Origin: Alsobacter soli
Lineage (GTDB): Bacteria > Pseudomonadota > Alphaproteobacteria > Rhizobiales > Beijerinckiaceae
Direction of reading: 5' to 3'
Assembly: GCA_945883115.1 (NCBI GenBank)
Contig: CAMCXA010000012.1
Span: forward strand, 1 to 52,962
Length of the DNA: 52,962 nucleotides
Shown piece by piece: positions 16,584 through 47,483 of this stretch (the stretch's first letter is position 1; each line of letters opens with the position of its first letter). The notes below the pieces were generated by a model. That model made no database searches. It was not told where the DNA came from and saw only the letters and a program-made list of their open reading frames with translations. Both the position numbers and the translations under genes were made by a program.

Positions 16584-16617
16584 GGTTCGCTTTTTTTGCG
16601 GAAAATCGGGAATGATA

Positions 16618-17349: not shown

Positions 17350-17365
17350 ACTGATTGTTTGGCGA

Positions 17366-19116: not shown

Positions 19117-19118
19117 AT

Positions 19119-19149: not shown

Positions 19150-19161
19150 CGGTGCAGTTTA

Positions 19162-20076: not shown

Positions 20077-20123
20077 TCTCTCTCTCCTCAGGTTTCAGGG
20101 TGGTTTTTAGAAAATTCAGCTTC

Positions 20124-22211: not shown

Positions 22212-22221
22212 GGGCGTATTC

Positions 22222-23154: not shown

Positions 23155-23161
23155 GGCAAAC

Positions 23162-24046: not shown

Positions 24047-24068
24047 GTTTTTCTGTCCGCAAGAATGA

Positions 24069-24092
24069 TGGACGCGGCTTTTGCCGCGTCCA
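24069..24092 (-). repeat. perfect 10-bp stem-loop between ugpB and ugpA
   Basis: TGGACGCGGC and GCCGCGTCCA pair perfectly around TTTT. There is no T-run after it in the direction of transcription, so it is more likely an mRNA-stabilising element or attenuator than a full terminator. The position parallels the phnD-phnE hairpin. Confidence 0.65.
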
Positions 24093-24107
24093 TAACAGAG
24101 TTATTTA

Positions 24108-25442: not shown

Positions 25443-25568
25443 AAGATAGCTCCGTCGAAGGTTGGTTCGGTGGTTTAGCGCCCAGATCGGTACCTGCGGA
25501 GTGTGACATTCTTTGGAACATCCCATGACGCATTTATGAAGATTAACGTTGAAGATTTGCGCAGTTGA

Positions 25569-31842: not shown

Positions 31843-33008
31843 CACGAAGCGACGCCGTAGAGTGCGAGGAAACGCTTCATCCTGTGAGCGGCATCATCCG
31901 GGTTGGCGAGCAATCCTGCTTTATCCGCAAGCGTGAAAAGTTCCGTGAAATAGGGTAGCGGTCGCATGGATTGCGCGCCGCCAATCATGGTGAAATGCGG
32001 CTGAAAGCCGTTAAGATAGGCAAGAAACACAATGCCGGTTTTGTAATATTGCGTCGGGCTGCGGAAGATGAGGCGGGATAGCGGCACGGTTGGTGCAAAA
32101 ATCCGGTCATAGGCGGCACTATTGCCTGCTTTGAGCGCGGCAAGTGCTGCCGACGCAGCAGGGGCAATTGCATCGAAAATGCCAAGCAAAGCGTGGCTGA
32201 ACCCCTGTGCGTCCCCCTTGATCAATTCGGGGTAGTTGAAATCGTCGCCGGTATACATTTTGACGCCATGGGGAAGGCGGCGGCGCATGAGAATTTCTTT
32301 CTGATCGTCCAGCAGCGATATTTTGATACCGTCAATTTTTGCGGCATTGGCTTCGATGACACGCAAAGAGGTTTCAAGTGCTGTCTCGAACGTGTCAGCG
32401 CCCCAATAGTTTTTCAGCTGCGGATCGAACATATCGCCGAGCCAATGCAGGATGACAGGCTTGTCGCATGCGGCCAGAACCTTGGCATAGACGGTTTCAT
32501 ACTCTTTTGCGGAATTCGCGATCCGGGCCAAGGCGCGGCTCGCCATCATGATCATCCGGCCACCGCGTTTCTGGACAGCCTCGACCTGTTCGAGATAGGC
32601 GCGGATCACGTCATCAATCGAGCGGGCATCATTGGGTGACAGATGATCCGTGCCGATGCCTGAGAAAATCCGGTCGCGCTCTTCCGGCTTCGCTGCTTGC
32701 AGCGAATGGGTAATCAGCTCGAGGGCGCCCGGCCAGTCGAGGCCGCCGCCGCGTTGTGCGGTATCCATTGCTTCGGCAATACCAAGCCCGAGATCTAGCA
32801 AATGACGGCGATAGGCAAGGGTTGCGTCCCACTCAATTGCCGGGCCGATACTTGGCTCACGGGCAGAGAAAGGATCCACGACAACATGGGCCGCAGAAAA
32901 TGCAATTCGGCTGAAATCATGCGGACCTTTGGGCGTTTCAATCGGGACGCCGGTCAAGGTGTAGCGGGTGAGGTGGCCCTTCGTATCGGGGAGCGAAATC
33001 GAGGTCAT
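31842..33008 (-). CDS. DUF993 family protein (dihydrodipicolinate synthase-like barrel)
   Basis: The 388-residue protein belongs to DUF993, a family distantly related to class I lyases of the DapA type. IDGIKISLLDDQKEILMRRR contains the lysine expected to form a Schiff base, and MYTGDDFNYPELI and QYYKTGIVFLAYLNG are family-typical. The reaction is not known; in other genomes the family travels with isomerase-type barrels and Gfo/Idh dehydrogenases, as here. It lies 23 bp after the SDR gene and is coupled to the isomerase gene. Confidence 0.85.
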   Translation of the reverse strand: MTSISLPDTKGHLTRYTLTGVPIETPKGPHDFSRIAFSAAHVVVDPFSAREPSIGPAIEWDATLAYRRHLLDLGLGIAEAMDTAQRGGGLDWPGALELITHSLQAAKPEERDRIFSGIGTDHLSPNDARSIDDVIRAYLEQVEAVQKRGGRMIMMASRALARIANSAKEYETVYAKVLAACDKPVILHWLGDMFDPQLKNYWGADTFETALETSLRVIEANAAKIDGIKISLLDDQKEILMRRRLPHGVKMYTGDDFNYPELIKGDAQGFSHALLGIFDAIAPAASAALAALKAGNSAAYDRIFAPTVPLSRLIFRSPTQYYKTGIVFLAYLNGFQPHFTMIGGAQSMRPLPYFTELFTLADKAGLLANPDDAAHRMKRFLALYGVAS

Positions 33009-33031
33009 GGTCGGTTCCGATGTCTAAATGT

Positions 33032-33811
33032 TTAAAATCTCGGGATGACAAGGCCGCCATCGGCGGAGAGGACTTGCCCGGTGCAAAATGCCAATTGGCC
33101 TGTCGCAAGGGCGATGGTGATGTCGCCGATATCTTTTGGTTGTCCCATCCGTTGGATAACGGTCAAGCCCTCTTTGATGCGCTTGCGATACTGGTCTTGA
33201 ACAATAGCCGTCATCGGCGTTTCGATGAGGCCCGGGCGAATATCGTATGAGCCGATCTCCTCGCCGCCGAGACGCACGGCGAACACTTTTGCGACCATCG
33301 CCGCACCGGCTTTCGACACGCAATATTCGCCTCGCGCGACTGCGACCGCTTCCGCATTTGCCGACGAAATCGTAATCACGCAATGATGGACATCGGCTGG
33401 CCGCTCACGCCGTAAAACGCGCTTCGCCCAGGCTTGCGTGAGAAAAAACGGAGCGCGGGTGTTGATCGCGAGGCACCGATCATAACTTTCCGGTGTGACA
33501 TCAAGCAAATCACCGCGGGACAGGACGCCGACGCCGGCATTGTTGACGAGGGTTGTGAGCGGACCAAGTGCCGCTTCCGCGCGATCAAGAAGGGCGGCAT
33601 GGGCTGAAATGTCAGCGACATCGCCGGGGATTGCGACAGCTTTGGCACCAAGCGCATTCAACTCCGATACCGTTGCGGCCACTTCGTCATCGGCAGTTGG
33701 TGCATTGATCCCGACGGCATAGCCGACGGAAGCGAGCGCCAGCGCAATCCCTTTGCCGATCCCCCGACTCGACCCGGTGATGAGGGCTGCGCGATGTGGT
33801 TGCGTTGTCAT
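33032..33811 (-). CDS. short-chain dehydrogenase/reductase (3-ketoacyl-ACP reductase-like)
   Basis: The 259-residue SDR has the nucleotide motif TGSSRGIG at 12-19, NNAGVGV at 90-96 and the catalytic S149/S150, Y163 and K167 (YCVSK). ISSANAEAVAVARGEYCVSK is typical of the group annotated as 3-ketoacyl-ACP reductase found beside sugar catabolic genes, so a sugar or polyol alcohol is as likely as an acyl substrate. It is 15 bp after the acyl-CoA dehydrogenase gene and 23 bp before DUF993. Confidence 0.9.
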   Translation of the reverse strand: MTTQPHRAALITGSSRGIGKGIALALASVGYAVGINAPTADDEVAATVSELNALGAKAVAIPGDVADISAHAALLDRAEAALGPLTTLVNNAGVGVLSRGDLLDVTPESYDRCLAINTRAPFFLTQAWAKRVLRRERPADVHHCVITISSANAEAVAVARGEYCVSKAGAAMVAKVFAVRLGGEEIGSYDIRPGLIETPMTAIVQDQYRKRIKEGLTVIQRMGQPKDIGDITIALATGQLAFCTGQVLSADGGLVIPRF

Positions 33812-33826
33812 GTCGCTCGTCGTCCT

Positions 33827-35005
33827 TTAGAGGCGTGACCCGTTCTTGATCAGTTCTCGCGCAATCACTGTCCGTTGGATCTGCTGTGTTCCCTCGTAGA
33901 TTTGGCAGATTTTGGCGTCGCGATAAAGCCTCTCGACCTCAAATCCGCGGATAAAGCCGGAGCCCCCAAAAATCTGCACCGCATTGCTGGTCTGGGCAAC
34001 CACCATATCGCCGGCGAAGAGTTTTGCCATCGAGCAGGCGGCATTGGCGGGTTGTTCATTATCAATCAGGAGTGCGGCGTGATGTACGAGCGCCCTTGCG
34101 GCGGCGACCTCCTTCGCCATATCGGCGAGCATCCATTGCAGTCCCTGATTATCGATGATGGGGCCGCCAAATTGACGCCGTGTCTTTGCGTAGTCGAGCG
34201 CGGCATCAAGCCCGGCTTGTGCAATGCCTATGGCGAGTGCAGCAATACCCACCCGCCCTTTCTCGAGTACGCTCATCATGATATGAAAGCCGCGGCCGAG
34301 TTCACCCAGCAGGGCGTCATCGTCAAGAGCCACATTCTCGAAATGCAATGCGCCGACTTGGCTCGCACGCTGACCCATTTTGTGCTCTTTGGGGCCACGT
34401 GAAACCCCTTTTGCATCCAGCGGCACGATGAAGATCGACATGCCGCGATGGCCTGCAGCAGGATCGGTGCGGGCGAGCACGAAGCCGATATCGGCCACTG
34501 GAGCATTGTGAATCCAGATTTTACTACCGTTCAAAACCCAGCCTGATGCCGTTTTGACGGCGGTTGTTTTGATGCCCGAGACATCCGAACCTGCTTCCGT
34601 CTCGGTAATGCAATAGGCGACTTTGGTGCGAAACGAGAGGACTTCGCCGAGCCAGCGCTTCTGCTGGGTGGCAGAGCCATATCGCGTGAGCAATGTGCCA
34701 ATCAGTTCGACGAGGCCGCATTGATCGGCAACAGAAGAATAGCCATGCGCAAGCTCTTCCATCACAATCGCGTAGGCGAGGCAATCGAGCCCTGCTCCGC
34801 CGAGTGAGTCTGGCACGGTAATTCCAAAAAGGCCGAGTTCCGCCATTTGCTTATAGAGATGGTCAGGGAAAAGTTCATCCCGATCAAGAATTTCCGCCTC
34901 CGGGCGAATAGCGTCGGTTGCAAAACGCCGCGTCATCGCCTCAATGTCGCGATAGGTTTGCGGATCATTTTTCGGAAGGACTACCATCTGATAGCTTTCT
35001 GGCAT
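33827..35005 (-). CDS. acyl-CoA dehydrogenase
   Basis: The 392-residue FAD enzyme oxidises an acyl-CoA to the enoyl-CoA. YCITETEAGSDVSGIKT is the flavin and substrate motif, KTRRQFGGPI is typical, and the catalytic glutamate is E371 in IYEGTQQIQRTVIARELI, the position used by short-chain and isovaleryl-like enzymes. It leads the minus-strand operon and is divergent from a CoA-transferase, with 173 bp between starts. An electron-transfer flavoprotein must be elsewhere in the genome. Confidence 0.93.
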   Translation of the reverse strand: MPESYQMVVLPKNDPQTYRDIEAMTRRFATDAIRPEAEILDRDELFPDHLYKQMAELGLFGITVPDSLGGAGLDCLAYAIVMEELAHGYSSVADQCGLVELIGTLLTRYGSATQQKRWLGEVLSFRTKVAYCITETEAGSDVSGIKTTAVKTASGWVLNGSKIWIHNAPVADIGFVLARTDPAAGHRGMSIFIVPLDAKGVSRGPKEHKMGQRASQVGALHFENVALDDDALLGELGRGFHIMMSVLEKGRVGIAALAIGIAQAGLDAALDYAKTRRQFGGPIIDNQGLQWMLADMAKEVAAARALVHHAALLIDNEQPANAACSMAKLFAGDMVVAQTSNAVQIFGGSGFIRGFEVERLYRDAKICQIYEGTQQIQRTVIARELIKNGSRL

Positions 35006-35178: not shown

Positions 35179-36675
35179 ATGACACGCCCTGTGCCGGTAT
35201 TGAGTGCCGAAAACATTGCAAAAATGATTCCCGATGGGTCGACCATCGCGTTGGCGGCTTCGGGCATTTTCCTCGAAGCCGACGCGCTTTATGCCGCGCT
35301 CGAAACGTCGTTTCTGGAGACGGGCCATCCGCGCGATCTGACGCTTGTTCATGCGCTCGGCATTGGCGACGGCAAGGGTACGGGCCTCGGGCGTTTCGCG
35401 CATGAAGGGATGGTGAAGCGTGTGATTGGCGGGCATTGGAGCTGGTCACCTGCGATGCAGCGATTGGCGGCTGAGAACAAAATCGAGGCCTATTCTTTTC
35501 CGGGCGGGGTGATTTCGTCGCTTCTTCGGGAAATTGGTGCGGGCCGCCCGGGATTGATCACCCGGATCGGTTTGGGGACCTTTGCCGACCCGCGTGTCGA
35601 TGGCGGGCGGTGCAATGAGAGGGCGACGGAAGATCTTGTCGAGCATGTCAGTTTCGATGGCAGGGACTATCTGCGATATAAACCACTCAAAATCGACTTT
35701 GCCTTAATCCGTGCCAGTGATTCGGATGAGCGTGGAACGCTCTCGCTCTTGCGTGAGCCCACGGACCTCGATGCCCATGCCGCCGCACTGGCAGCGCATA
35801 ATTCAGGCGGCAAGGTGTTTGCACAAGTCGAGCGGATGGTGACACGACGCGCGCATCCCGCAAGGCTCAGCCGTATTCCCGGTATTCTGATTCATGGTAT
35901 TCTTCTCGCGCCTGACGCGCGCAAAACCTATTTGCCGGGATATGACCCGAGAGTATCGGGGGCTGCCGCACTTGCGCCCGGGCAGGGCGAGGATCATCCG
36001 GACCTGCCGACGGGAATTCGCCGCATTATTGCAGAGCGTGCAATGCAGGAGTTGGGTGATGCGCGATCGGTGAATTTCGGCTTCGGGATTCCGGGAGGCA
36101 TACCGGCACTTGTCAAGGCGGCGGGTGACGTTCGCTATTGGGGCTCGGTGGAGCAAGGCATCCACAATGGTGCGATGATTGACGGGCCGATGTTCGGCGC
36201 GGCCTTCGACCCTGATGCAATCATTCCGTCAGTCGACCAGTTTGATTTCTATTCCGGCGGCGGAATTGATGTCGCCTTTCTCGGTATGGGGGAGATGGAT
36301 GAACAGGGTAACGTCAATGTCTCGAAAATTGGCGGTCGTCTTGTCGGTCCGGGCGGGTTTGTCGATATCACGCAGACAGCGCGAAAAGTTGTTTTTTGCG
36401 GCGCTTTTGAAGCGAAAGGGCTCGATGTCGAAACCACATCGGATGGCAAATTGCACATCGCCTCGCACGGCACGGTGCCTAAGTTGGTCAAGGCGGTGGA
36501 ACATATCACGTTCAGCGGCAAACAAGCCCTGCTGAATGGGCAGACAGTGCTTTATGTAACCGAGCGAGCGGTGTTCAAACTGACGCAAAAGGGCGTGGCA
36601 CTCATCGAGGTTGCGCCCGGGATTGATCGGGATCGTGACGTTTTAAGCCGGATGGAATTTACGCCCGTCCTTTGA
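35179..36675 (+). CDS. family I CoA-transferase (acetate/3-ketoacid type), fused subunits
   Basis: The 498-residue protein joins the alpha and beta domains of 3-ketoacid CoA-transferases. The alpha part (about 1-260) has IPDGSTIALAASG; the beta part contains VNFGFGIPGGIPALV and the catalytic glutamate E325 in SVEQGIHNG, which forms the CoA thioester. It moves CoA from one acid to another, and with the divergent acyl-CoA dehydrogenase and the nearby crotonase it would activate a carboxylic acid for oxidation. GAAAGA precedes ATG 35179. The natural acid is not known. Confidence 0.92.
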   Translation: MTRPVPVLSAENIAKMIPDGSTIALAASGIFLEADALYAALETSFLETGHPRDLTLVHALGIGDGKGTGLGRFAHEGMVKRVIGGHWSWSPAMQRLAAENKIEAYSFPGGVISSLLREIGAGRPGLITRIGLGTFADPRVDGGRCNERATEDLVEHVSFDGRDYLRYKPLKIDFALIRASDSDERGTLSLLREPTDLDAHAAALAAHNSGGKVFAQVERMVTRRAHPARLSRIPGILIHGILLAPDARKTYLPGYDPRVSGAAALAPGQGEDHPDLPTGIRRIIAERAMQELGDARSVNFGFGIPGGIPALVKAAGDVRYWGSVEQGIHNGAMIDGPMFGAAFDPDAIIPSVDQFDFYSGGGIDVAFLGMGEMDEQGNVNVSKIGGRLVGPGGFVDITQTARKVVFCGAFEAKGLDVETTSDGKLHIASHGTVPKLVKAVEHITFSGKQALLNGQTVLYVTERAVFKLTQKGVALIEVAPGIDRDRDVLSRMEFTPVL

Positions 36676-36801: not shown

Positions 36802-37878
36802 ATGACAAAGAAAGATGCGCGCACCCTGAAAGTGGGTGTGCTGGGGGCCGGACAGATTGCGCAAGCGGCGCATTTCGAGAGCTGCACCAAAGCACGCAAT
36901 GCAGACCTCTTCGCCATTTGCGACGTTGCCGATGATCTCAGAGAGCGCATGGCGATCACCCATGGCGCACAGAAGACCTTCAATGATTACGATGAAATGT
37001 TGGCTGATCCCGGGATTGATGCCGTGATCATCGCGACGGCGGACGCTTTTCATGTTCCGGCGTCGATACGAGCGCTCGAAGCGGGCAAGCATGTGCTTTG
37101 TGAAAAGCCGGTTGCGATCGGCCTTGATGAAACTCTCGCTTTGGCGGAAGCGGTCAAGAAGTCCGGTTTGACGTTCCAGATCGGACATATGAAGCGGTTC
37201 GATGCCGGATTAATGGCTGCAAAGCACTTTATCGATACGGAAATGGGCGATTTGATCGCGTTAAAAGCATGGTATTGCGACTCGACGCATCGGTATCCGA
37301 TGACGGATGCGGTGCAACCTCTCATTGTGTCGAGCGCGAATGCACGCAAGCCATCGGGCAATCCGAAGGCCGATCTGAAGCGATATTATATGCTCGCGCA
37401 TGGCAGTCATCTTGTGGATACAGCCCGCTATTTTGGTGGTGATATTGTTGCGGTGACGGCGAAACTATCCGACACGAAGGGAGCCTATTGCTGGTTTGTC
37501 GATGTCGAGTTTGCCAATGGGTGTCTGGGCCATCTCGATCTGACGGTTGCTGTAAGGATGGATTGGCACGAGGGATTCCAGATTTACGGGCAAAATGGCA
37601 GCGTGATCGGGAAGACGTATAATCCGTGGTATTACAAATCGAGTGATGTCGAGATTTTTCATGAAAAAGAGGGTGGTACCTTCCGTCCTCTGGGCGAGGA
37701 CGGCCATTTTTACCGCCGGCAACTGGAAGGGTTTGCCGACACCATCCTGAACGGGGCCCCGATGATCGGAGCCGATATCGAGGACGGGATTGCGTCTGTT
37801 CGGGGGATGATTGCAATTGCACGTTCGGTTGAAACAGGGCGAACCGTCCGGCTTGCGGATGTTTCGGGTCTGTTGTGA
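36802..37878 (+). CDS. Gfo/Idh/MocA family oxidoreductase
   Basis: The 358-residue protein has the Rossmann start VGVLGAGQIAQAAH at 11-24, the signature EKPVAIG with the catalytic lysine near residue 101, and a C-terminal alpha/beta domain with HGSHLVDTARYFGG carrying the usual active-site histidine. Such enzymes oxidise sugars or cyclitols with NAD(P). GAGGCGGGA precedes the start. It opens a run of seven plus-strand genes; the next gene starts on its last base, so dehydrogenase and isomerase are coupled. Confidence 0.92.
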   Translation: MTKKDARTLKVGVLGAGQIAQAAHFESCTKARNADLFAICDVADDLRERMAITHGAQKTFNDYDEMLADPGIDAVIIATADAFHVPASIRALEAGKHVLCEKPVAIGLDETLALAEAVKKSGLTFQIGHMKRFDAGLMAAKHFIDTEMGDLIALKAWYCDSTHRYPMTDAVQPLIVSSANARKPSGNPKADLKRYYMLAHGSHLVDTARYFGGDIVAVTAKLSDTKGAYCWFVDVEFANGCLGHLDLTVAVRMDWHEGFQIYGQNGSVIGKTYNPWYYKSSDVEIFHEKEGGTFRPLGEDGHFYRRQLEGFADTILNGAPMIGADIEDGIASVRGMIAIARSVETGRTVRLADVSGLL

Positions 37879-38717
37879 TGCAGCTTGGAATCTTCGCAAA
37901 AACCTTTCCGGGATCAACCCCTGATGACGTACTCGGTCAGGTGAAGGCTGCGGGGTTCTCGTCGGCGCATTACAATATGGCGTGCTCGGGCCTTGCGGCG
38001 ATGCCCGATGCGATACCGGATGCCGTGACAGACGATATCGCAAATGCCGCTTCCCGAAGCGGGGTGACGCTTGTCGGGATGTCCGCCACATGGAACATGA
38101 TCCATCCCGATCCCGTTGAGCGGGAACTGGGGTTTCAGCGTCTTGATATGCTGGCCAAAGCAGCGCGGCGGGTTGGGGCAGGATTGGTAACGCTCTGCAC
38201 GGGAACGCGTGATCCGGTCGATCAATGGCACGCGCATCCAGACAATCATTCGACTGAGGCTTGGCGTGATCTCCTCGCCTCGATGGAAAAGGCCGTTCTG
38301 ATTGCCGAGCGGCATGACGTGTTTTTGGGTGTCGAGCCGGAACTGGCCAATGTGGTGGATACAGCCGTAAAAGCACGTCGACTGATCGACGAAATGGCGA
38401 CTGACCGGATCAGGATTGTACTTGATCCTGCCAATCTCTTCGAAATTGAAACCGCGGATGTTCGGGAGCGGCTTGTTGACGAGGCGATTGACCTGCTGGG
38501 TGACCGGTTTGCCATGGCCCACGCGAAGGATCGTGATGCACAGGGGCACTTTGTGGCAGCGGGACGGGGCGTGATCGATTTTGATCATTTTGTCCGCCGG
38601 TTGAAAGATGCGGGATTTTCAGGGCCATTGGTTACGCATGGACTGGCAGCGGACGAGGCCGCCGACGTTGCCGCGTTTCTCAAAAAGACGCTCGGTGATG
38701 CCGGGATTGATCATTGA
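37878..38717 (+). CDS. sugar phosphate isomerase/epimerase family protein
   Basis: The 279-residue TIM barrel has FLGVEPELANVV with a metal glutamate, RIVLDPANLF with the aspartate, AHAKDRDAQGHF with the histidine and GRGVIDFDHF at the position of the final ligand loop. ATG 37878 overlaps the Gfo/Idh stop by one base (TGATG). Proteins of this kind often epimerise or isomerise 3-keto or 2-keto sugars made by a Gfo/Idh partner, and coupling supports that here (inference). It is the third barrel of this type in the window, after those at 26753 and 31842. Confidence 0.88.
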   Translation: MQLGIFAKTFPGSTPDDVLGQVKAAGFSSAHYNMACSGLAAMPDAIPDAVTDDIANAASRSGVTLVGMSATWNMIHPDPVERELGFQRLDMLAKAARRVGAGLVTLCTGTRDPVDQWHAHPDNHSTEAWRDLLASMEKAVLIAERHDVFLGVEPELANVVDTAVKARRLIDEMATDRIRIVLDPANLFEIETADVRERLVDEAIDLLGDRFAMAHAKDRDAQGHFVAAGRGVIDFDHFVRRLKDAGFSGPLVTHGLAADEAADVAAFLKKTLGDAGIDH

Positions 38718-38719
38718 TT

Positions 38720-39541
38720 ATGACGGTGACAAGTTTTCATCATGACGGGGTGAGATTTGCCGTGACAGATCATGGCGGCGAGGGCGTTCCATTCCTGTTC
38801 CAGCATGGTCTTTGCGGCAGCGCGACGCAAACGGTTGAGGTTATCCCCGAGCTGCCGGATATTCGTGCGATTACGCTGGAATGCCGCGGGCATGGGAACT
38901 CCGAGGCGGGAAACCCTGACGGATTTTCGATTGCGACCTTTACCTCGGATGTCGATGCATTGATCGACGCTTGGCATTTGGCGCCGGTGATTATTGGCGG
39001 GATTTCGATGGGGGCGGCGATTGCGCTTCGTCTCGCTGTGCGGCGCCCCGAAAAGGTACGGGCACTGGTTCTCGCCCGTCCGGCGTGGATTTTTGATCGC
39101 GCGCCAGAAAATATGCAGCCGAACGCGGAAGTCGGACATTTATTGCGTGCGCATCCATCAGACGAAGCGCGGGCGATGTTTATGGCATCACCAACTGCGA
39201 AACGTCTTGCGGTGGAAGCACCGGATAATCTTGCATCTCTCACGGGATTTTTTGAGCGAACGCCGCAGGAGATTACGGCGGCATTGTTGACGCAGATTTC
39301 AGCGGACGGGCCGGGCGTAAGTGCAGCAGACATTGCGGCGATCACATGTCCTGTGCTGATTATCGGTCATGGCGATGATGTGATTCATCCGTTTTCCTTT
39401 TGCGAAGCGTTTGCCGAACTCATGCCTTCAGCAAAGCTTGTGCGTATCCCGGCAAAGACAAAGGGTAAAGCGCCCTATATCACTGCATTCAAGGCCGCTT
39501 TGGCCGAATTTTTAGAGGATGTATCTCATGGCAAAGCCTGA
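38720..39541 (+). CDS. alpha/beta-fold hydrolase, possible lactonase, catalytic His apparently missing
   Basis: The 273-residue protein has the alpha/beta-hydrolase plan: oxyanion HGLCG at 29-33, the nucleophile elbow GISMG with S96, and an acid in IIGHGDDVIHP. The third triad member is normally a histidine in a segment of type IP.KS....H; here the aligned segment is IPAKTKGKAPYITAF, with Y253 where His is expected. Either H239-region residues take over or activity is altered. ATG 38720 follows the previous stop by two bases. A sugar-lactonase role next to a dehydrogenase would be reasonable but is unproven. Confidence 0.85.
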   Translation: MTVTSFHHDGVRFAVTDHGGEGVPFLFQHGLCGSATQTVEVIPELPDIRAITLECRGHGNSEAGNPDGFSIATFTSDVDALIDAWHLAPVIIGGISMGAAIALRLAVRRPEKVRALVLARPAWIFDRAPENMQPNAEVGHLLRAHPSDEARAMFMASPTAKRLAVEAPDNLASLTGFFERTPQEITAALLTQISADGPGVSAADIAAITCPVLIIGHGDDVIHPFSFCEAFAELMPSAKLVRIPAKTKGKAPYITAFKAALAEFLEDVSHGKA

Positions 39542-40220
39542 CTCCACTTGGTTCGATATGCTTCCCAAAAACCGGTTGATGGCCGAGTTTTCGATGTGGT
39601 CGGCTGATCTTGTGCGGATTGCGGATGATCTCGCGCGTATTTCAGGCCAGGCGGACCTTTTGCATATTGACGTGGCGGATGGCCATTTTGCACCGGCTTT
39701 GTTGTTTTTCCCCGATCTTGTCGCGCGGATACGGGCGGCCAGCGCGATTCCGATCCATGTGCATCTGATGATTGCCGATGTTATCCTGATTGACCAGATC
39801 GACCAGTTTGCGGAGGCGGGAGCGGATCTGATCAGCGTTCATGCGGAGAACGGCAATGCGTCGGCGGGGCTCGACCGTATTGCAGGATACGGGCTCAAGG
39901 CAGGCATGGTTCTTAAAGTCGACACGCCCGTGATTACGGCATCACCTCACCTGATACGTCTCGATATGTTGACCCTGCTCGGCACAGCAATCGGTGTGAA
40001 GGGGCAGAGCCTGAACGAGCGCGCGCCTGCACGTTTGAAGGAGGCGCGAGCACTGATCAAGGAGACGGGCCGACGTATCGTTCTGGCGGCAGATGGCGGT
40101 ATTCGGGACAATACCGTTCCTGTGCTTCGCGAGGCCGGCGCGGAGACTGTTGTCATGGGTTCTTTGGCGTTCGGGGCACCCGATTTGGGTGCAAGGATTG
40201 CCTGGGTCCGTGGGCTCTGA
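39528..40220 (+). CDS. ribulose-phosphate 3-epimerase-like protein
   Basis: The 230-residue TIM barrel resembles Rpe. The metal ligands are present: H46 and D48 in LLHIDVADGH, H79 in HVHLM and D189 in AADGGI. The phosphate loop GSLAFG is also kept. Two Rpe landmarks differ: the LNPxTP motif is VLKVDTP and the MSVNPGFGGQ lid is GTAIGVKGQS. It is thus probably an epimerase for a related ketose phosphate, not housekeeping Rpe. AGGA lies eight bases before ATG 39528, and the gene overlaps the hydrolase gene by 14 bp. Confidence 0.87.
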   Translation: MAKPDSTWFDMLPKNRLMAEFSMWSADLVRIADDLARISGQADLLHIDVADGHFAPALLFFPDLVARIRAASAIPIHVHLMIADVILIDQIDQFAEAGADLISVHAENGNASAGLDRIAGYGLKAGMVLKVDTPVITASPHLIRLDMLTLLGTAIGVKGQSLNERAPARLKEARALIKETGRRIVLAADGGIRDNTVPVLREAGAETVVMGSLAFGAPDLGARIAWVRGL

Positions 40221-40235
40221 GCGAAAGAAGTGATG

Positions 40236-41186
40236 ATGACCGACGCCTATGCCATCGGCATTGATCTTGGGGGCACGCAAGTGCGGGCGGGCCTTGTTGA
40301 CTGGTCAGGTAAACTGATTGCCCGGGAGTCAATGCTGACGGACAGGATGGGGGGGCCACAAGCCGTTGTCGAGCAGATCGGGCTGCTCGTTGATAAAATC
40401 ATTGTGACCAAGCCGGAATGCATGATTGCCGGAATTGGTGTTTCCGCACCCGGGCCGCTTGACGCCGTAACGGGACATATTCTTGAAATTGCCACGCTGA
40501 AAGGCTGGGAGAACACCCCGATTGTCGAGATGCTGGAAGCGCGTCTCGGCCAGAATGTGGCGATCGAGAATGACGGATTGGCGGCAGCTCTCGGCGAATG
40601 GCGCTATGGCGCAGGCAAGGGTCTCACGCATTTCGTTTATGTGACCGTCAGCACGGGAATTGGCGGCGGCGTTGTGGCGGATGGCCGTTTATTGCGGGGA
40701 CGACGCGGCATGGCGTGCCATGTCGGGCATATGAGCATCGACCCGAACGGCCCAAGATGCGGATGCGGCAATCCCGGGTGCTGGGAGGCGATTGCCTCGG
40801 GAACGGCACTCGCAAGACGGGCGCAGGTGGCGATGATGGGCGATCCCGCATCAACATTGCATAGCGGGCCTCAACCCATTGATGCGGGTGCCATTTTTGC
40901 GGCTGCACGGCATGGAGACGGGACGGCTCTCAAGCTCGTAAACGAGGAAGCGAGATGGCTCGGCATTGGCTTGGTCAATTTGCTGCATCGGTATAGCCCG
41001 GAAAAGATCGTTCTCGGTGGAGGGCTGTCGCAGGGGCTTGATCTGATGCGAGCGGGCATTGAAGCAGAGATTGCCGCGCATGCAATGGTGCCCTTCAGAA
41101 CAGTGTCGGTTGTATCAGCCGGGCTTGGCGGAGATTCCGGTATTATCGGGGCGGCATCGCTATTTCAGTTTTCTGACCGGATTTGA
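40236..41186 (+). CDS. ROK-family sugar kinase
   Basis: The 316-residue protein has the ATP-binding DLGGTQVRAG at 9-18, the catalytic aspartate in ENDGLAAALGE near residue 112, and the zinc motif of ROK kinases CGCGNPGCWE near residue 172. There is no N-terminal HTH, so it is a kinase rather than a repressor. Several start codons (GTG 40230, ATG 40233, ATG 40236) are in frame. Together with the PfkB kinase it gives the gene run two sugar kinases, which suggests two phosphorylation steps or two substrates. Confidence 0.92.
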   Translation: MTDAYAIGIDLGGTQVRAGLVDWSGKLIARESMLTDRMGGPQAVVEQIGLLVDKIIVTKPECMIAGIGVSAPGPLDAVTGHILEIATLKGWENTPIVEMLEARLGQNVAIENDGLAAALGEWRYGAGKGLTHFVYVTVSTGIGGGVVADGRLLRGRRGMACHVGHMSIDPNGPRCGCGNPGCWEAIASGTALARRAQVAMMGDPASTLHSGPQPIDAGAIFAAARHGDGTALKLVNEEARWLGIGLVNLLHRYSPEKIVLGGGLSQGLDLMRAGIEAEIAAHAMVPFRTVSVVSAGLGGDSGIIGAASLFQFSDRI

Positions 41187-41207
41187 TCGACCTTCCCTAA
41201 AGAAAAT

Positions 41208-41268
41208 GTTCCGACTCTCTTGAACCGTTGCGATTATGCGGCTAACTTTTATAGCTATCGGTCGGAAC
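41208..41268. repeat. spaced inverted repeat before the aldolase-like gene
   Basis: GTTCCGAC (41208-41215) and GTCGGAAC (41261-41268) are perfect inverted repeats with 45 bases between, inside the 112-bp gap before 41299. The gap is the largest in this gene run, so an internal promoter with an operator pair is possible. Confidence 0.4.
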
Positions 41269-41298
41269 CTGCTCGGATGGGCTTTTGGGAGATTTACC

Positions 41299-42285
41299 AT
41301 GTCGCGATTAGACGAAAAGCTCGCCCGTATCCGTTCCGGCGCGTATAAGCGAACCGATTTTATCATTGCCGATGCCAAAGACCCCGATATGGGACCCGGA
41401 CTTTACTCGCATGGTCCGATTCGGTTGAATGATGGTTCGATGCCGCGGCTCAGAAACCGCGCTGAATTTCTGGAAACAATCCGCGACGTGATCAATCAGG
41501 ACATCGTCGACATCATGTTGACGTCAGCCTCCAATCTCGAACAGCTCGTCAAGTCGGGCGCTTACAAGAATTCGAAAATCAAGCCTGTGATCCGGGCGAA
41601 TGATACGACAGACATTTGGCGGCATCGTGGCGCTACCCATCATCATCGGCCATCGCGCCCGTTCCGCACCGCAAATCTGAAGCGCGTGAAGGAAAACCTA
41701 ACGGATCTTGGGCTTTACTCGATTACGTTTACCAATGATCTCGATGCTGATCTCGAAGCCATGCACGCATTCGCCGAGTTCCGCGAAGATGCGCTGGCAC
41801 ACGGGTTCACCTATTTTCTCGAAGTTTTCAATCCGAATGTTGGTGGCCCTTCGCCTGAGGAAATGCCGCACTTCGTCAATGATGCGATCATTCGTTGCCT
41901 TGCGGGTCTGACCGAGATCGAGCGTCCGCGCTTTTTGAAGATCGCCTATAATGGGCCGCGTGCACTTGATGAACTTGCGAGCTTTGATCCGAGCCTCGTT
42001 GTGGGTGTTTTGGGCGGCGGCGCAGGCACGACGCGCGATTGTTTCGAATTGATCTTTCAGGCGGAAAAATATGGTGCGCGGGTGGCTTTGTTCGGTCGCA
42101 AGATCAATCTGGCTGAAGCGCCGCTTGAAATGATCCGCCATATGCGCGCTGTTGCTGACGGCACTCTTGCACCGCTTGATGCGGTGAAATCCTATCATGA
42201 CACACTCGCTCAGCTGAAAATCGTTCCGGCTCGCTCGCTGGCGGATGACAGCCAGATTACCGAAGCACCGTTGAAGGCAGGCTGA
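41299..42285 (+). CDS. class I aldolase-like TIM-barrel protein (DeoC/LacD-like)
   Basis: I recognise the fold type but not the exact family. The 328-residue protein has FLKIAYNGPRALDELA with a lysine (K214) placed like the Schiff-base lysine of DeoC/LacD aldolases, then VVGVLGGGAGTTRDCFEL, a phosphate-binding-loop-like stretch, and YGARVALFGRKINLAE. GGGAGA lies six bases before ATG 41299. It is followed after 7 bp by a PfkB kinase, the classic pair for phosphorylating and splitting a sugar. A sulfosugar, deoxysugar or inositol-derived substrate is possible; none is shown. Confidence 0.7.
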   Translation: MSRLDEKLARIRSGAYKRTDFIIADAKDPDMGPGLYSHGPIRLNDGSMPRLRNRAEFLETIRDVINQDIVDIMLTSASNLEQLVKSGAYKNSKIKPVIRANDTTDIWRHRGATHHHRPSRPFRTANLKRVKENLTDLGLYSITFTNDLDADLEAMHAFAEFREDALAHGFTYFLEVFNPNVGGPSPEEMPHFVNDAIIRCLAGLTEIERPRFLKIAYNGPRALDELASFDPSLVVGVLGGGAGTTRDCFELIFQAEKYGARVALFGRKINLAEAPLEMIRHMRAVADGTLAPLDAVKSYHDTLAQLKIVPARSLADDSQITEAPLKAG

Positions 42286-42292
42286 TCCTGTG

Positions 42293-43315
42293 ATGCCGGT
42301 GCGAAGGGGTATCCTGACTGCAGGTTCGTGGGTTGTCGACAATAACAAAACGCTTCAGGCTTGGCCCGCCGAAGACACGATGAACACCTATGTCGAACTG
42401 GATCGGCAGGGTGGAGGCTCCGGCTGCAACATGGCGATCGATCTCAAAAAGCTTGATCCGTCCTTCCACGTCGAGACAATGGCTATTGTTGGTGACGATG
42501 ATGACGGGCGTTACCTTCTGGGGCAATGCGATCAGTACGGCATTCAGCGGCGGCATATGCAGGTGGTCAAAGGGGGCACGACGCCTTTCAGCGATTGCTT
42601 TAACTCCATCGAGAGTGGCAAGCGAACGCATCTCTATTATCCGGGTGTCGCTGAAGAATTATGCCCCGATCATTTCGATTTTAGTGACTCTGACGCCCGG
42701 ATTCTGCATCTCGGCCTTCCGGGCGCACACAAGAAGATGGATGCTCCCTGGGGCGAGGATTCGACCGGATGGGCAACCGTGCTGAAAGCAGCGGGCAGGG
42801 CGGGGCTCAAGGCCAATCTCGAAATGGTATCGACGACACGCGACAGGATCCGGCATTTCGGGCGGTCCTGCCTGCCGCATCTCGATTTCCTGATCGTCAA
42901 TGATTACGAGATCGGAGCGGTGGCGGATGTTGAAACGCGAGATGGCACACGAACGCTTTATCCAAAGGTTGTCGAGGCATTACGGGCGGTTTTTGATCAT
43001 GGCTCGATCTCGCTGGCCGTAGCGCATTTTCCCGAGGCCGCCATTGCGGTGACGCGTGACGGCAACGTGGTTGTAGCCGGGTCCGTTTCTATTCCGTCAA
43101 GCGAGATTGTCGGCGTTAACGGGGCGGGCGACGCCTTTGCTGCGGGCGTTCTCTTCGCATCCCATGAAGGGCAAGCAATCGAGGATGCGTTGCGGATGGG
43201 GCATGCATGCGCCGCGGCGTCGATGAGATCGGCAGCGACCACGAACACGGTTGTTTCGGCTTCCGAGTGTTTGGCACTGGCTGAAAAATGGGGCTTCCGT
43301 CCGGCGCCACTCTGA
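42293..43315 (+). CDS. PfkB-family carbohydrate kinase
   Basis: The 340-residue kinase has the PfkB N-terminal glycine pair GGGSGCNMA near residue 40 and the C-terminal signature VNGAGDAFAAGVL with the catalytic aspartate near residue 280; LIVNDYEIGAV is the typical middle segment. ATG 42293 is three bases after an alternative GTG. It closes the plus-strand run, 7 bp after the aldolase-like gene, and converges with thiQ. Likely substrate: the sugar cleaved by that aldolase. Confidence 0.92.
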   Translation: MPVRRGILTAGSWVVDNNKTLQAWPAEDTMNTYVELDRQGGGSGCNMAIDLKKLDPSFHVETMAIVGDDDDGRYLLGQCDQYGIQRRHMQVVKGGTTPFSDCFNSIESGKRTHLYYPGVAEELCPDHFDFSDSDARILHLGLPGAHKKMDAPWGEDSTGWATVLKAAGRAGLKANLEMVSTTRDRIRHFGRSCLPHLDFLIVNDYEIGAVADVETRDGTRTLYPKVVEALRAVFDHGSISLAVAHFPEAAIAVTRDGNVVVAGSVSIPSSEIVGVNGAGDAFAAGVLFASHEGQAIEDALRMGHACAAASMRSAATTNTVVSASECLALAEKWGFRPAPL

Positions 43316-43348: not shown

Positions 43349-44041
43349 CTAGAGATAGTCGGCCAAACGTGGCTGTAGCGGCGTGGCAAAGAAGCGGTCA
43401 ATCGTTTGCGGGGTTGAGGCAGTTCCATCAGCCACAAAAACCGCGTGGGAAGCGATAGCTTTTAGATCGTCGGGATCATGCGAAACCATGAGTACGGTGA
43501 GATCGAGATCCTGTTGCAGTTTGCGGACTACCTCGAGCATGTCCCGCCTCAGACGTGGGCCGAGACCGCTGAAGGGTTCATCAAGCAACAGGATCGGTTT
43601 CTTCCGCAAAAGTATCCGTGCAAGTGCGACGCGTTGGCGTTCCCCGCCGGATAATTCGGCGGGACGATGCGTTTCGCGACCTTGCAATCCGAGACGGGCG
43701 AGCGCGGCATCGACTTCGCGCCATTCTGCCTTATCGAGCGAGAGATCAGGTTTGAGACCAAGGGCCGCGTTTTTTGCTGCATCCAGATGGGCGAAGAGAT
43801 TGTGCTCCTGAAACAGGATACTCACGGGGCGCTCGGAGGGTGCGAACCCTGTCACATCATTTCCGTTGATCCGGACCCGGCCCGATTGTGGATCGGTGAA
43901 GCCTGCAACAATATTCAGAAGCGTGGACTTTCCGCCGCCCGACGGACCAATAATCCCGATTATGCCGGGGCCGGGAAAGGAGAGCGAAAAACGGACGTTG
44001 AAGTCTTCAGTGGTCCATTGCACATCCTCAAGATCAATCAT
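43349..44041 (-). CDS. thiQ: thiamine ABC transporter ATP-binding protein ThiQ
   Basis: The 230-residue ATPase has Walker A GPSGGGKST, the ThiQ-like SILFQEHNLFAHLDAAKN, signature ELSGGERQRVALAR and Walker B ILLLDEPFSGLGP. ATG 44041 is chosen because AAAGGAG lies seven bases upstream; two earlier starts lack this spacing. It overlaps thiP by eight bases and is the last gene of thiB-P-Q. Confidence 0.93.
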   Translation of the reverse strand: MIDLEDVQWTTEDFNVRFSLSFPGPGIIGIIGPSGGGKSTLLNIVAGFTDPQSGRVRINGNDVTGFAPSERPVSILFQEHNLFAHLDAAKNAALGLKPDLSLDKAEWREVDAALARLGLQGRETHRPAELSGGERQRVALARILLRKKPILLLDEPFSGLGPRLRRDMLEVVRKLQQDLDLTVLMVSHDPDDLKAIASHAVFVADGTASTPQTIDRFFATPLQPRLADYL

Positions 44042-45626
44042 GCGCATGCTCCTTTCGGCCAAAGGCGGAGAATGCCTGCGTCATGAGGATTGAAAAAACG
44101 GCGAGAACAAGGGCGATCCCCGCCGCGTCATCCGTCCGGTAACTGCCAAGACGCTGATAGATCAAGAAAGGCAGCGTCACGATCGAGTCAGAACCAAAAA
44201 AGGCGATCACGCCGAAATCTCCGAATGAAAGCAGAAAAGCAAAGGTGAAAGCCGCACGAAAGGCGGGTTTGAGAATGGGCCAATCGATCAGGCTGAAACG
44301 TGACCAGCCTGAAATCCCGAGGCTTTCGCACAGCGGGTCCTCATGGGCAACAAGCCTGCGCAAGGATCCCGCAAGGCTGCGATAGACAAAGGGCAGAGCC
44401 ATGATCGCATTGATCAGAACGATCAGAACGGGCGCATAGCCTACCGAACTGGCCGACGGCATCAAGATCAAGAACCATCCCGCGCCGAGCAGAACAGGCG
44501 GCAGCAGGAGCGTCAGCTCAACGGGTGCTTCGAAGATGCGCGCTTGCTTTACGGCGCCCTTCGATTCAAGTCGTATCGCGGCCAAAGCAAGCGGATAGGC
44601 AATGAGTACGGCGATGAGTGCAGCCGTGAACGCGATGCCACCGGACGTGGCGATGGCCCGCCAGAGGATACGCTCCGTTAAAAGGCGCGAAAAATCTGCC
44701 GTCAAACCAGAGAGGATGACTGACAGGATCGGCAACAGGATAAACAGGGCCGAGAGCACGATCATGATCATATCCGGAACGGGATTTCCGGATTTTGACA
44801 AGGACGCTCGTTCAGGGCCGAGGGATAGGCGCGCTGTTTCAGCGAAAGGGGGCCGAAACTTGGCCAGAAAGGACAAAAGCAGCACGCATAGGCCGATCTG
44901 ACCCATAGCCAAGGCCAGAGCGAGCCTGGGATCATAATCGAAGCGAAGTGCCTGATAGATGGCGAGTTCCAATGTTGTCGCCGCCGGACCTCCGCCGAGT
45001 GTCAAAACAATCGTGAAGCTGGTAACGCAGAGCATGAAAATGAGCCCGGCAATGCCCGGTAGCGCATTTTGAAGCACGGGCCATTCAATCACCCGGAAGA
45101 TGGCCCGCTCGGACATGCCAAGCATTTGCGCCAGACGCCATTGCTCTCGCGGCACCTGTTGCAGGGCGATCAGGGTGAGAAGGGCGGCATAGGGCAAATT
45201 GAAAAACACATGCGCGAGCAGAATGCCATTCAGCCCGTAAATTGACGGAAGCTCGGGCCAAAAGCGGGAGATGAAGCCAGCGCGTCCGTATAAAGAGACG
45301 AGCGCCAGAACGGCAACCAAGGCAGGCAATCCCTGCGGCAGAGCGAAAAGGCGCAGCAGAAATCCGCGGCCGAAAAACTGGCGACGTGAGAGTGCGCGCG
45401 CCAGCAAGACACCGAGAACGACGGAAATCAGCGTGGACAAAACGGCCTGAAGCAGGGTGAAGCTCGCCGCCCGCCAGAGAAGGCTTGCTGACGTCGAGCC
45501 CATCCCCGGACTTGACCAACCAAGCGCAACAAGAGCCGGAAGCGCGATCAGTGCAAGCACCGCGAGCGCTAGAAGTGCGCCCGCGGAAGGCCAATTTTTG
45601 CCTATTGAGCCATGCTGGCTTGCCAT
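44034..45626 (-). CDS. thiP: thiamine ABC transporter permease ThiP
   Basis: The 530-residue protein is a fused double permease with about twelve hydrophobic spans and two EAA loops, the first near residue 185 ([20 protein letters not shown]) and the second near 450 ([17 protein letters not shown]). This duplicated layout is that of ThiP/FbpB; the flanking thiB and thiQ and the TPP riboswitch decide for thiamine. It overlaps thiB by 25 bp. Confidence 0.93.
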
Positions 45627-46597
45627 TCTTCAGTCCAGACCTTGCGCTTGGATGCAACCTCTTCAGGCGTGAACAGGAAGCTTTTTGATGGATTAACCAG
45701 CTTTCCGAAAGCTTCGGGAAGCGGTGCCGATGTTTTCGCAGCAGGCATCATCCAGTTTGTCGTCGGGATGATATCCTGAAACTCCGTGCTTATCATGAAT
45801 TTGAGAAAATCCTTGGCGAGTGCCGGTTGTTTGCTGGAGGCCATGATGCCCGCAACCTCGATCTGGAGATAATGACCTTCGGAGAAGGCTGCTGCCTGAT
45901 AGCGGTCGGTTTTCTCTTCGATCATGTGATAGGCGGGTGATGTCGTGTAGCTGAACACCATGGGTGCCTCACCCTTCGTGAAGAGTCCGTAGGCTTCGCT
46001 CCAACCGGGTGTGACGGTGAGAATGCGCTTGGATAATTTCTTCCACGCGTCTGGTGCCTTGTCGCCATAGACCGAGCGCATCCAGAGAAGGAGGCCCAGA
46101 CCCGGTGTCGAGGTGCGGGGATCTTGAATGACAATCTTCTCCGCAGGATTGCCATTGACCAATTCATCAAGGCTCTTCGGCGGGTTCTTGATTTTTTCCG
46201 AGTCATAGATGACCGCGAAATGAGCAAAATCAAAGGGTAAGAAATTGGGGTCGGACCAGCCGTTCGGAACTGTTACCGTCGATATATCCGCGCCATGCGG
46301 TGCAAAGAGATTGGTGTTGCGGGCCTCTGCGGTGAGGTTTGTATCCAACCCGAGAACGATATCGGCTTCCGAGTTTTTACCCTCCATTTTGAGGCGGTTG
46401 AGAATGGCAACGCCATCGGCGAGCGAAACGAAACGCACTTCGCAGCCGCATTTCGCCTCAAAGGCTTTTTTCACAGCGGGGCCGGGGCCCCAATCGGCGG
46501 TGAAGCTTTCATAGGTATAGACAGTGAGAACAGGTGCGGCATACGCAGGGACGATAGCCGCGAAAAACAAGGTGAGAAGTGACGCCAATCTTAACAT
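45602..46597 (-). CDS. thiB: thiamine-binding periplasmic protein ThiB
   Basis: The 331-residue precursor has a signal peptide of about 20 residues ending PAYA. The mature part begins [21 protein letters not shown], shortened here in meaning to the ThiB N-terminal block, and has GLDTNL and [12 protein letters not shown], typical of ThiB. GGAGG lies seven bases before ATG 46597; the frame to 46651 is within the leader. It binds thiamine or its phosphates for ThiPQ. Expression is controlled by the TPP riboswitch upstream. Confidence 0.94.
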
Positions 46598-46653
46598 TTC
46601 AGCCTCCATCTTTCGGCGGGAGGCAAGACAAAAAGACGATGCTTCTTGCACTG

Positions 46654-46752: not shown

Positions 46753-46841
46753 AATTGCTATCTTAGAGACGAAAAAACTAAACTGCAAGAGCATCGAACC
46801 GTGAGGTGGTATTTGAGGTATCGCTCGACTATATCTGGCAT

Positions 46842-47483
46842 ATGGACGAATTCGGTGACGCGCATTTCAGTATCCTGCTCGGCGGCACGCTGACGCCAAC
46901 GCCACGCCTTTTGCGCCAGATTGCTGGCTCACGCGTGATCGCGGCGGATGGCGGTATTCTGCATGCCGAGACGTTGGCAGTGTCTACCGAATTGTGGGTC
47001 GGTGACTTTGACTCGACGCCCGACGCCGCGCGGAAACGCTTTGATCATGTTTCGCGGGAAGAGCATCCGACAGACAAAGATCGGACAGATGGTGAAATTG
47101 CAATCGAAGCGGCGATTGCGCGCGGTGCCAAACGCTTGACGCTGGTGAGCGGACTCGGTGGGCAGGCCGACCACGTTCTCGGACATTTCATGCTGGCTCT
47201 CCGCTATGCGCAAGAAGGGCTCAGGGTCTCCATCACGAGCGGCGATGAAGAGGCCTACCCGTTGCTGCCGGGCGTTCATGAGTTCGATCTGCCTGCCGAA
47301 AGCAGGATCAGCATTATCCCCCTGAGCAAACTCGATCGTCTTTCGTTGAAGAATGTCTATTGGCCGTTGAATGATACGGTTGTTCCGCTCGGAAGCACAC
47401 GGACACTCTCGAACCGCGCCAAAGGACCCGTTCAGGTCGAGCTCGCGTCCGGATACGGGATGATTATCGCGTATCCGGTGTGA
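46842..47483 (+). CDS. thiamine pyrophosphokinase
   Basis: The enzyme transfers pyrophosphate from ATP to thiamine, giving ThDP. The 213-residue protein has AADGGILHA near 35, VGDFDS at 53-58 and DKDRTDGEIAIEAA at 78-91, the metal and nucleotide motifs of the family, and ends SGYGMIIAYPV. ATG 46842 and GTG 46806 are both possible; neither has a strong ribosome site. It is divergent from thiBPQ, so import and activation of thiamine sit side by side. Confidence 0.93.
   Translation: MDEFGDAHFSILLGGTLTPTPRLLRQIAGSRVIAADGGILHAETLAVSTELWVGDFDSTPDAARKRFDHVSREEHPTDKDRTDGEIAIEAAIARGAKRLTLVSGLGGQADHVLGHFMLALRYAQEGLRVSITSGDEEAYPLLPGVHEFDLPAESRISIIPLSKLDRLSLKNVYWPLNDTVVPLGSTRTLSNRAKGPVQVELASGYGMIIAYPV

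Follow-up and report, generated by a model that had tools for sequence, protein, structure and literature searches.

Seven consecutive genes (g1 to g7) on the + strand, at positions 36802-43315 of a 52,962-nucleotide stretch of Alsobacter soli DNA, are composed of two portable modules that are joined here and in a few other genomes. The whole stretch, hereafter the window, is contig C12 of a 2.6-Mb draft genome in 104 contigs. Module A (g1-g5) has genes of Gfo/Idh dehydrogenase, TIM-barrel isomerase, alpha/beta-hydrolase, epimerase and ROK kinase type, and module B (g6-g7) those of an aldolase-type barrel and a PfkB kinase. A preliminary description of the window had treated the run as one seven-gene carbohydrate pathway. 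The predicted fold of g6 makes it very probable that this protein is an aldolase. We tentatively propose that it founds an unnamed class I aldolase family of Alphaproteobacteria, reaching Verrucomicrobiota and Actinomycetota, which with interchangeable kinases (PfkB or ADP-dependent type) would constitute a portable ketose-1-phosphate route of two enzymes. In several lineages, including that of this genome, the route would have been attached as a cleavage end to an undescribed Gfo/Idh-TIM barrel-hydrolase-epimerase-ROK module. As part of the same tentative proposal, transport, 1-kinase and aldolase of module B may amount to the liver-type fructose route in bacteria.

The g6 product matched no Pfam or NCBIfam model at E 0.001. 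When 52 members of its family were searched against Pfam at E values up to 1, DeoC (PF01791) was not among the families matched, and ten unrelated families were matched by 1-4 members each (best E 0.0078). Two DeoC-type neighbour genes in other loci do match PF01791. The AlphaFold2 model of g6 (mean predicted local distance difference test score, pLDDT, 94.5) is a class I aldolase-type (beta/alpha)8 barrel with a Foldseek E value of 4.1e-10 to 2qji; thus, the aldolase guess made in the preliminary description was right. The Z score was 24.0 for ADH synthase 2qji (root-mean-square deviation 2.8, 255 residues aligned), 23.4 for LsrF 4p2v, 22.7-22.8 for the archaeal fructose-bisphosphate (FBP) aldolase 1ojx, 21.2 for the sulfohexulose-1-phosphate aldolase 8tnf, and 20-21 for LacD and YihT. 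Residues invariant in the 52 members include K27, R99, D105, E175, K214, R267 and K268. Lys214 lies in the motif FLKIAYNGP and is the candidate Schiff-base lysine, as it aligned, weakly (probability 15% and 4%), with the lysine of 'IKVGYTG' in one DeoC-family aldolase and of 'LKLPYPG' in another. As a negative control, the g6 profile was compared with the module-A TIM barrel g2, which gave E 0.18 and an alignment of nine columns elsewhere.

A scan of the class found g6 in 5 of 289 genomes, its own included. A profile scan of named genomes confirmed at least 478 relatives; 80 of their loci were retrieved for comparison. Among 40 listed plasmid rows, g6 is a 'hypothetical protein' in 22, the only rows annotating it.

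The pairing of g6 with a kinase gene was counted in the 77 of these 80 loci that hold at least 1.2 kb downstream. A g7-like PfkB gene lies directly 3' of g6 on the same strand in 47 loci. In 11 of the remaining 30, a kinase gene of another type lies within 7 kb, which we call ADP-dependent after the plasmid records' own label, 'ADP-dependent glucokinase/phosphofructokinase'; no locus has both types. Two switches between the types suffice on the g6 tree when only rows having either kinase are used, and with kinase-less rows as a third state, 13 changes were counted against 27.9 in shuffles. The distances of g6 and g7 correlate over 50 pairs (Mantel r 0.77, 0/2000 permutations). The score of g7 for PF00294 (92.1 bits) is above the gathering cut-off of 25.8. 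In a PDB profile search, its nearest solved structures were YdjH and IolC, followed by adenosine kinases, ribokinases and ketohexokinases. Its best NCBIfam match, IolC, is below the cut-off (67.8 of 300 bits). Glycolysis of the 1-phosphofructokinase type was considered for module B, and the score of g7 on the 1-phosphofructokinase model is lower (39 bits), likewise below the cut-off. Kinase genes of the ADP-dependent type adjoin g6 at L102:7349-8605, L177:7236-8501 and L178:7077-8336, the last recorded as hypothetical. That of L177, the sole one compared with NCBIfam, had no match at 1e-12.

Rhizobiaceae, Aureimonas and Roseobacteraceae have module A as a recurrent block, in many cases with ATP-binding cassette (ABC) transporter genes as neighbours, and some genomes of the window's family have it too. 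It is carried by plasmids of R. johnstonii 3841, Aureimonas AU20, Shinella, Agrobacterium and Rhizobium SL42. We compared 18 module-A loci, the window included. They do not count as independent: L098 resembles L173, and L185 resembles L186. The plasmid members were hand-picked from longer match lists. L185-L187 entered the comparison via g6; since adjacency counts from them are biased, they are tallied separately from the 14 loci that were located without g6. For L185 and L186, the stretch retrieved does not reach g6, which was read in L037 and L040 instead. The complete set of five genes occurs in 13 of the 18 loci, the window included, with g1 of L160 truncated by the contig start. L100, L166 and L172 hold g1-g3 only, L162 is without a recognised g5, and L170 is cut by a contig end. 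Genes in the mapped loci took the label of their best tblastn match in a library of loci that were annotated or labelled by us; further genes, carrying no label, may therefore intervene. Eleven of the 18 loci have at least two ABC-transporter genes at a distance of up to 10 kb. A second Gfo/Idh gene and a second TIM-barrel gene occur in the module-A loci of R. johnstonii, Shinella, G418, Alloyangia, Salipiger and Aureimonas pseudogalii, and RL_Gfo2 and RL_SPE2 accompany g1 and g2 in L098, L167, L173, L185, L186 and L187. The class-wide g4 profile at E 1e-60 gave a match in 1 of 385 genomes, the window's own.

Module B is likewise found in other company. Among the 44 g6 loci having 7 kb on both sides, 33 have ABC-transporter genes nearby. 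An annotated plasmid operon of Pararhizobium consists of three ABC genes, g6 ('hypothetical protein') and a kinase gene, with a ROK gene opposite; this layout of transporter, kinase and aldolase, with no further enzyme, would fit a ketose substrate. The g6 loci of Paracoccus, Alloyangia, Shinella and Sinorhizobium have FrcBCA- or ribose-type ABC transporters and ROK regulators, and those of Rhizobium have polyol-type ABC genes with zinc- and short-chain-dehydrogenase-like genes. D-lyxose isomerase-like genes lie near g6 in several loci (that of L017 with 208 of 350 bits for its model), ribulokinase- and AraD-type genes neighbour it in L014 and L015, and genes for a glycerol-3-phosphate dehydrogenase and an FGGY kinase are near it in Agrobacterium fabrum. 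L050 has the order g6-g7-SPE2. In Kaistia soli (L057), g6 and an ADP-dependent-type kinase gene stand beside Gfo2, ABC and SPE2 genes, and g1-g5 are absent. The preliminary description had remarked that no sugar transporter or regulator is attached, which is true of this run. Both modules adjoin ABC transporters and regulators in many genomes, so their absence is a feature of this genome.

In the window, A and B lie head to tail. They also adjoin in Alloyangia, Salipiger and Aureimonas (L037, L040, L046/L187), which makes 3 among the 80 g6 loci. Alloyangia pacifica and Salipiger mangrovisoli have a ROK regulator-FrcB-FrcC-FrcA-g6-g7 operon followed by a LacI-Gfo2-ABC-SPE2-g1-g5 cluster; in Aureimonas pseudogalii, the module-A cluster has one g6 on one side and, on the opposite side, g7, another g6 copy, FrcA and FrcC. 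A single conserved seven-gene set was rejected, as one module occurs without the other in eight genus and family loci mapped and in 77 of the 80 g6 loci. The expectation that the seven genes are conserved together therefore fails: g6-g7 is a widespread independent unit and g1-g5 a separate block. Nor are the genes dispersed in all relatives; the modules are apart in the one genus mate that carries both and adjoining in the three genera named above.

Of the 10 genomes in the genus sample, 8 have g6 and 2 have a g3 orthologue; besides the window genome only G425 has module A, on a contig other than that of g6-g7. In G425 (L160:3823-9291), module A is followed by DhaL, a phosphotransferase system enzyme I-type protein and DhaK, a dihydroxyacetone kinase set, in place of g6-g7. 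Three genus mates (L018, L019, L020) have the order FrcB-FrcC-FrcA-FrcK-AKR-SGNH-MFS-g6-g7 (AKR, aldo-keto reductase; MFS, major facilitator superfamily). The matching Frc operon of the window genome, on C45, continues after FrcK with another MFS gene (recognised by eye), the SGNH gene and then other genes, and g6-g7 are absent from it. The MFS relative (64%) lies on C51. In the family sample without the window genome, a g3 orthologue (>200 bits) was found in 7 of 198 genomes and g6 in 21 of 198; the two co-occur in 4 genomes against 0.74 expected (hypergeometric P 0.003, uncorrected for relatedness).

Other aldolase genes accompany module A elsewhere. Of the 14 module-A loci found without g6, five have another DeoC/LacD-type aldolase with a kinase, and one has the dihydroxyacetone kinase. 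A DeoC-type aldolase and a PfkB kinase stand beside module A in L098 and L173, and a YihT-like aldolase and a ROK-AAA kinase in L099, L162 and L179. This recurrence of aldolase and sugar kinase in several lineages makes a route ending in aldol cleavage credible. Of the full route to triose phosphates suggested earlier, the cleavage ending is credible, and the seven genes are not one conserved unit. At L099:697-3050 and L179:3178-5545, the YihT-like aldolase gene is accompanied by genes for a ROK kinase fused to a P-loop (AAA_33) domain, a SorC-like regulator and a ribose-type ABC transporter; the domain call was made on L099.

The open reading frame (ORF) list of the window has all seven ORFs (Table 1). 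The ORFs and their junctions confirm the earlier observation that the genes follow one another on one strand, most with overlaps or short gaps, with g5-g6 as the exception. The family names given earlier also hold, six by Pfam (GFO_IDH_MocA, AP_endonuc_2, Abhydrolase_1, Ribul_P_3_epim, ROK and PfkB) and g6 by its AlphaFold2 fold. None of the seven products reached the cut-off of an NCBIfam model. g1 and g2 overlap by 1 base (TGATG), g3 follows g2 by 2 bases when taken from ATG 38720, and g4, taken from ATG 39528, overlaps g3 by 14 bases. The spacing is 9-12 bases from g4 to g5 and 4-7 bases from g6 to g7. The sole loose junction, g5 to g6, measures 112 bases with g6 starting at ATG 41299, the start used by its relatives; a longer in-frame start is at 41236. 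One terminator-like site lies in this gap (41227-41242), and the scan of the region was uninformative, with 8 terminator-like sites (8.2 expected by chance) and 1 promoter-like site (4.0 expected). No transporter or regulator gene lies inside the run; a sugar-type ABC operon is at 21141-25526 on the opposite strand. The run is more than a chance arrangement because g1-g5 and g6-g7 each recur as blocks elsewhere.

Table 1 Genes and junction of the seven-gene run in the window.
Feature	Position	Strand	Basis
g1, module A: Gfo/Idh/MocA NAD(P)-dependent sugar/cyclitol dehydrogenase, 358 aa	36802..37878	+	PF01408 84.6 bits
g2, module A: xylose-isomerase-like TIM barrel (sugar phosphate isomerase/epimerase family), 279 aa	37878..38717	+	PF01261 115 bits
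g3, module A: alpha/beta-hydrolase-fold protein; likely ATG start 38720	38714..39541	+	PF00561 68 bits
g4, module A: ribulose-phosphate 3-epimerase-like; likely ATG start 39528	39519..40220	+	PF00834 137 bits
g5, module A: ROK-family sugar kinase, 317-318 aa	40230..41186	+	PF00480 238 bits
A/B junction: 112-bp gap	41187..41298	+	sequence
g6, module B: class I (Schiff-base) aldolase-type barrel, predicted, 328 aa	41299..42285	+	fold model, alignments
g7, module B: PfkB-family sugar kinase, 341 aa	42290..43315	+	PF00294 92.1 bits

The module-A enzymes were compared with their orthologues and with models of known function. g1 is 59-77% identical to 9 orthologues and keeps a C-E-K-P motif; its best NCBIfam match is IolG (139 bits, cut-off 355), and the solved sequence nearest to it is DgpA. 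g2 is 55-63% identical to 7 orthologues. Its AlphaFold2 model was built from 3 input sequences, the five models ranging from pLDDT 59.7 to 85.4, and the best (85.4) has Z scores of 24-28 to UlaE, ketose 3-epimerases, YcjR, AtHYD (keto-glucal hydratase) and others. The fold search did not discriminate epimerases, isomerases and hydratases, nor did it single out DgpC- or LgdB-type enzymes. In g3, the nucleophile Ser98 and the acid Asp222 are invariant in the window and 7 orthologues. The catalytic His is missing from its canonical C-terminal place in all 8 sequences, where Lys248 is invariant; other invariant His residues are at 31, 60, 219 and 225, and similarity to a known esterase stops short of the His region. 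Judged by these residues, g3 may not be an ordinary hydrolase, and the hydrolysing function ascribed to it earlier is doubtful. g4 is below the cut-offs of the Rpe (152 of 213 bits) and AlsE (113 of 271 bits) models. In the alignment it has the loops DVADGHFAPALLFF and GTAIGVKGQ, which we take to be unlike those of Rpe and AlsE, and it keeps the His and Asp residues that are presumably metal ligands and acid-base residues. The D-GGT and E-D motifs of g5 are invariant in the window and 8 orthologues, and its score for the allose kinase model is below the cut-off (120 of 253 bits).

We give about an even chance to the reading that the run is a composite sugar-catabolic operon, in which module A would oxidise and rearrange a sugar derivative and module B would phosphorylate and cleave the resulting ketose. 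The NAD-dependent g1 would oxidise the derivative, and the keto product would be rearranged by g2 (as isomerase, epimerase or eliminase), g3 and g4 (as 3-epimerase); g5 may phosphorylate one product of module A. Module B would be a free-standing two-enzyme ending, in which g7 phosphorylates the ketose, most likely at C1, and g6, forming a Schiff base at Lys214, cleaves the ketose phosphate to yield dihydroxyacetone phosphate plus an aldehyde. The CH2OH adjoining the keto group is the site phosphorylated by IolC and ketohexokinase, and C1 is proposed, if weakly, for g7 because of this. g6-g7 may have left a FrcBCAK-type uptake operon in this lineage and come to lie behind module A, a move that would suggest that module A delivers the same kind of ketose. 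Whether the two modules are used jointly here we judge to be an evenly balanced question. If the proposal is correct, alphaproteobacteria gain a ketose-cleaving route that bypasses hexose 6-phosphates, and one assay of g6 would annotate a widespread catabolic step, often encoded beside sugar transporters. That module A is repeatedly accompanied by aldolase-kinase pairs of unrelated kinds points to a sugar, as yet undescribed, that is degraded to trioses.

Several observations weigh against the composite operon. Module A accompanies only three of the 80 g6 loci. None of the 14 module-A loci located without g6 has that gene nearby (L166 and L170 are short), and eight of the 14 have neither an aldolase-kinase pair nor a dihydroxyacetone kinase. 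R. sullae, R. leguminosarum WSM2304 and S. sumterensis (Shinella) carry both modules 500-750 kb apart on one replicon. Neither kinase type was recognised in 19 of the 77 g6 loci. Only the kinship of g7 points to C1, and in that ranking adenosine kinases and ribokinases come after YdjH/IolC but ahead of the ketohexokinases; the profile alignments behind Lys214 are the weak ones given above. The 112-bp gap leaves room for separate transcription. As the genome is a draft of 104 contigs, the apparent relocation of g6-g7 could be a loss and a separate gain.

It is possible, at rather less than an even chance, that two independent pathways merely adjoin, module A feeding the g5 product, a hexose 6-phosphate, to central metabolism and g6-g7 still serving a ketose imported by FrcBCA. 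The occurrence of each module without the other in most loci seen, the Frc transporter operon remaining on C45 and the gap at the A/B junction are consistent with this view. However, A and B also lie side by side in two further lineages, 5 of the 14 module-A loci located without g6 have a different aldolase-kinase pair alongside, and the co-occurrence in the family is above chance, uncorrected for relatedness.

Module A might also be a 3-keto-glycoside route of the levoglucosan or O-glycoside beta-elimination kind, which we regard as unlikely. A Gfo/Idh enzyme would oxidise C3, TIM barrels would eliminate and hydrate, a second Gfo/Idh enzyme would reduce, the ROK kinase would yield a hexose 6-phosphate, and the Rpe-like enzyme would invert C3. 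The richer module-A loci, with two Gfo/Idh genes, two TIM-barrel genes and an ABC transporter, have the lgdA-B1-B2-C layout given in PMC7676230. The fold matches of g2 include YcjR, a 3-keto-glucoside 4-epimerase, and AtHYD, and DgpA is nearest to g1. However, the fold of g2 is equally near ketose 3-epimerases, the window is without the second Gfo/Idh and TIM-barrel pair, and RL_Gfo2 has no close orthologue in its genome (best 32%). Against the levoglucosan dehydrogenase (LgdA) equivalog, g1 scores 72 of 650 bits, below the cut-off and below two other Gfo/Idh genes of the genome (323 and 286 bits, on C6 and C5), and the route has no need for an aldolase. None of 240 genomes of the class sample is above the cut-off of this model, and 19 of 240, its own included, match at E 1e-80; therefore, the sample holds no LgdB or LgdC from such a genome to compare with g1 and g2.

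A cyclitol route parallel to inositol catabolism, with g1 in the IolG role, a TIM-barrel dehydratase in that of IolE, g3 opening the ring, and g7 and g6 acting like IolC and IolJ, a known pair of IolC and class I aldolase, is improbable: the best NCBIfam matches of g1 and g7 are IolG and IolC and the SPE2 neighbour in L098 matches IolE at 76 bits, but all scores are far below the equivalog cut-offs (139/355, 68/300 and 76/290), IolD and IolB are absent from the run, g3 is without the catalytic His, g4 and g5 have no role, and module B is found with fructose/ribose-type transporters and with D-lyxose isomerase-like and polyol-type dehydrogenase genes.

The window contains further gene sets. A second sugar-like cluster at 30985-35005 (-) comprises a TIM-barrel isomerase gene (30985-31845), a DUF993 protein gene (31842-33008; PF06187, 587 bits), a short-chain dehydrogenase/reductase gene and an acyl-CoA dehydrogenase gene, beside which lies a FadX-like CoA-transferase gene (35179-36675, +; 320 bits, cut-off 750). 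An apparent C-P lyase phosphonate gene set occupies 8742-20927 (-), with PhnJ identified by Pfam at 13367-14644; the adjoining PhnI, PhnK, PhnM and PhnCDE-like genes were identified by eye in the translated sequences. A thiamine-type ABC operon at 43349-46651 (-; ThiQ model 242 bits, cut-off 245, other parts by eye) faces a thiamin pyrophosphokinase-type gene at 46806-47483 (+).

The earlier remark that no known pathway with exactly this gene set was recognised agrees with a literature search covering few subscription journals, in which we recognised no paper on the set or on g6. We compared the modules with the closest known systems. In E. coli, the D-allose pathway includes an Rpe-like epimerase and a ROK kinase (AlsE-AlsK), and g4 and g5 resemble this pair in occurring together; both are below the AlsE and allose kinase cut-offs, and RpiB is absent from the run. 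Ketohexokinase-aldolase, IolC-IolJ and YdjH-YdjI are kinase-aldolase pathways, and g6-g7 resemble them in having a PfkB kinase encoded directly beside an aldolase-type gene. They differ in that g6 belongs to a different aldolase family and an ADP-dependent-type kinase substitutes in other g6 loci. The likeness of g6 to the sulfoglycolytic kinase-aldolase pairs is a fold resemblance to 8tnf and YihT only.

The levoglucosan pathway, as laid out in PMC7676230 (lgdA-B1-B2-C), resembles the richer module-A loci in combining Gfo/Idh and sugar phosphate isomerase/epimerase-type enzymes with an ABC transporter and a LacI regulator. The window differs from that layout in having one Gfo/Idh and one isomerase/epimerase-type gene plus g3, g4 and g5, with no equivalog-level match. 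The Sinorhizobium meliloti fructose uptake locus, as described in PMC10433430, comprises frcA, B, C, K, R and S, with frk as fructose kinase, and does not include g6-g7; the genus mates share its frcBCAK order upstream of g6-g7, with the AKR, SGNH and MFS genes between. In its barrel (Z 20-24 over about 250 residues), g6 is like the DeoC/FbaB/LacD superfamily, which includes LsrF, ADH synthase, archaeal FBP aldolase, YihT and sulfohexulose-1-phosphate aldolase, and its conserved Lys aligns, with weak scores, with the K..Y.G lysine of that superfamily. Its GGG and GRxI motifs resemble what we take to be the phosphate site of these aldolases. It differs from them in its identity of 10-17% and in its own signatures, DAKDxDM, IRxNDTxDIW and FLEVFNP.

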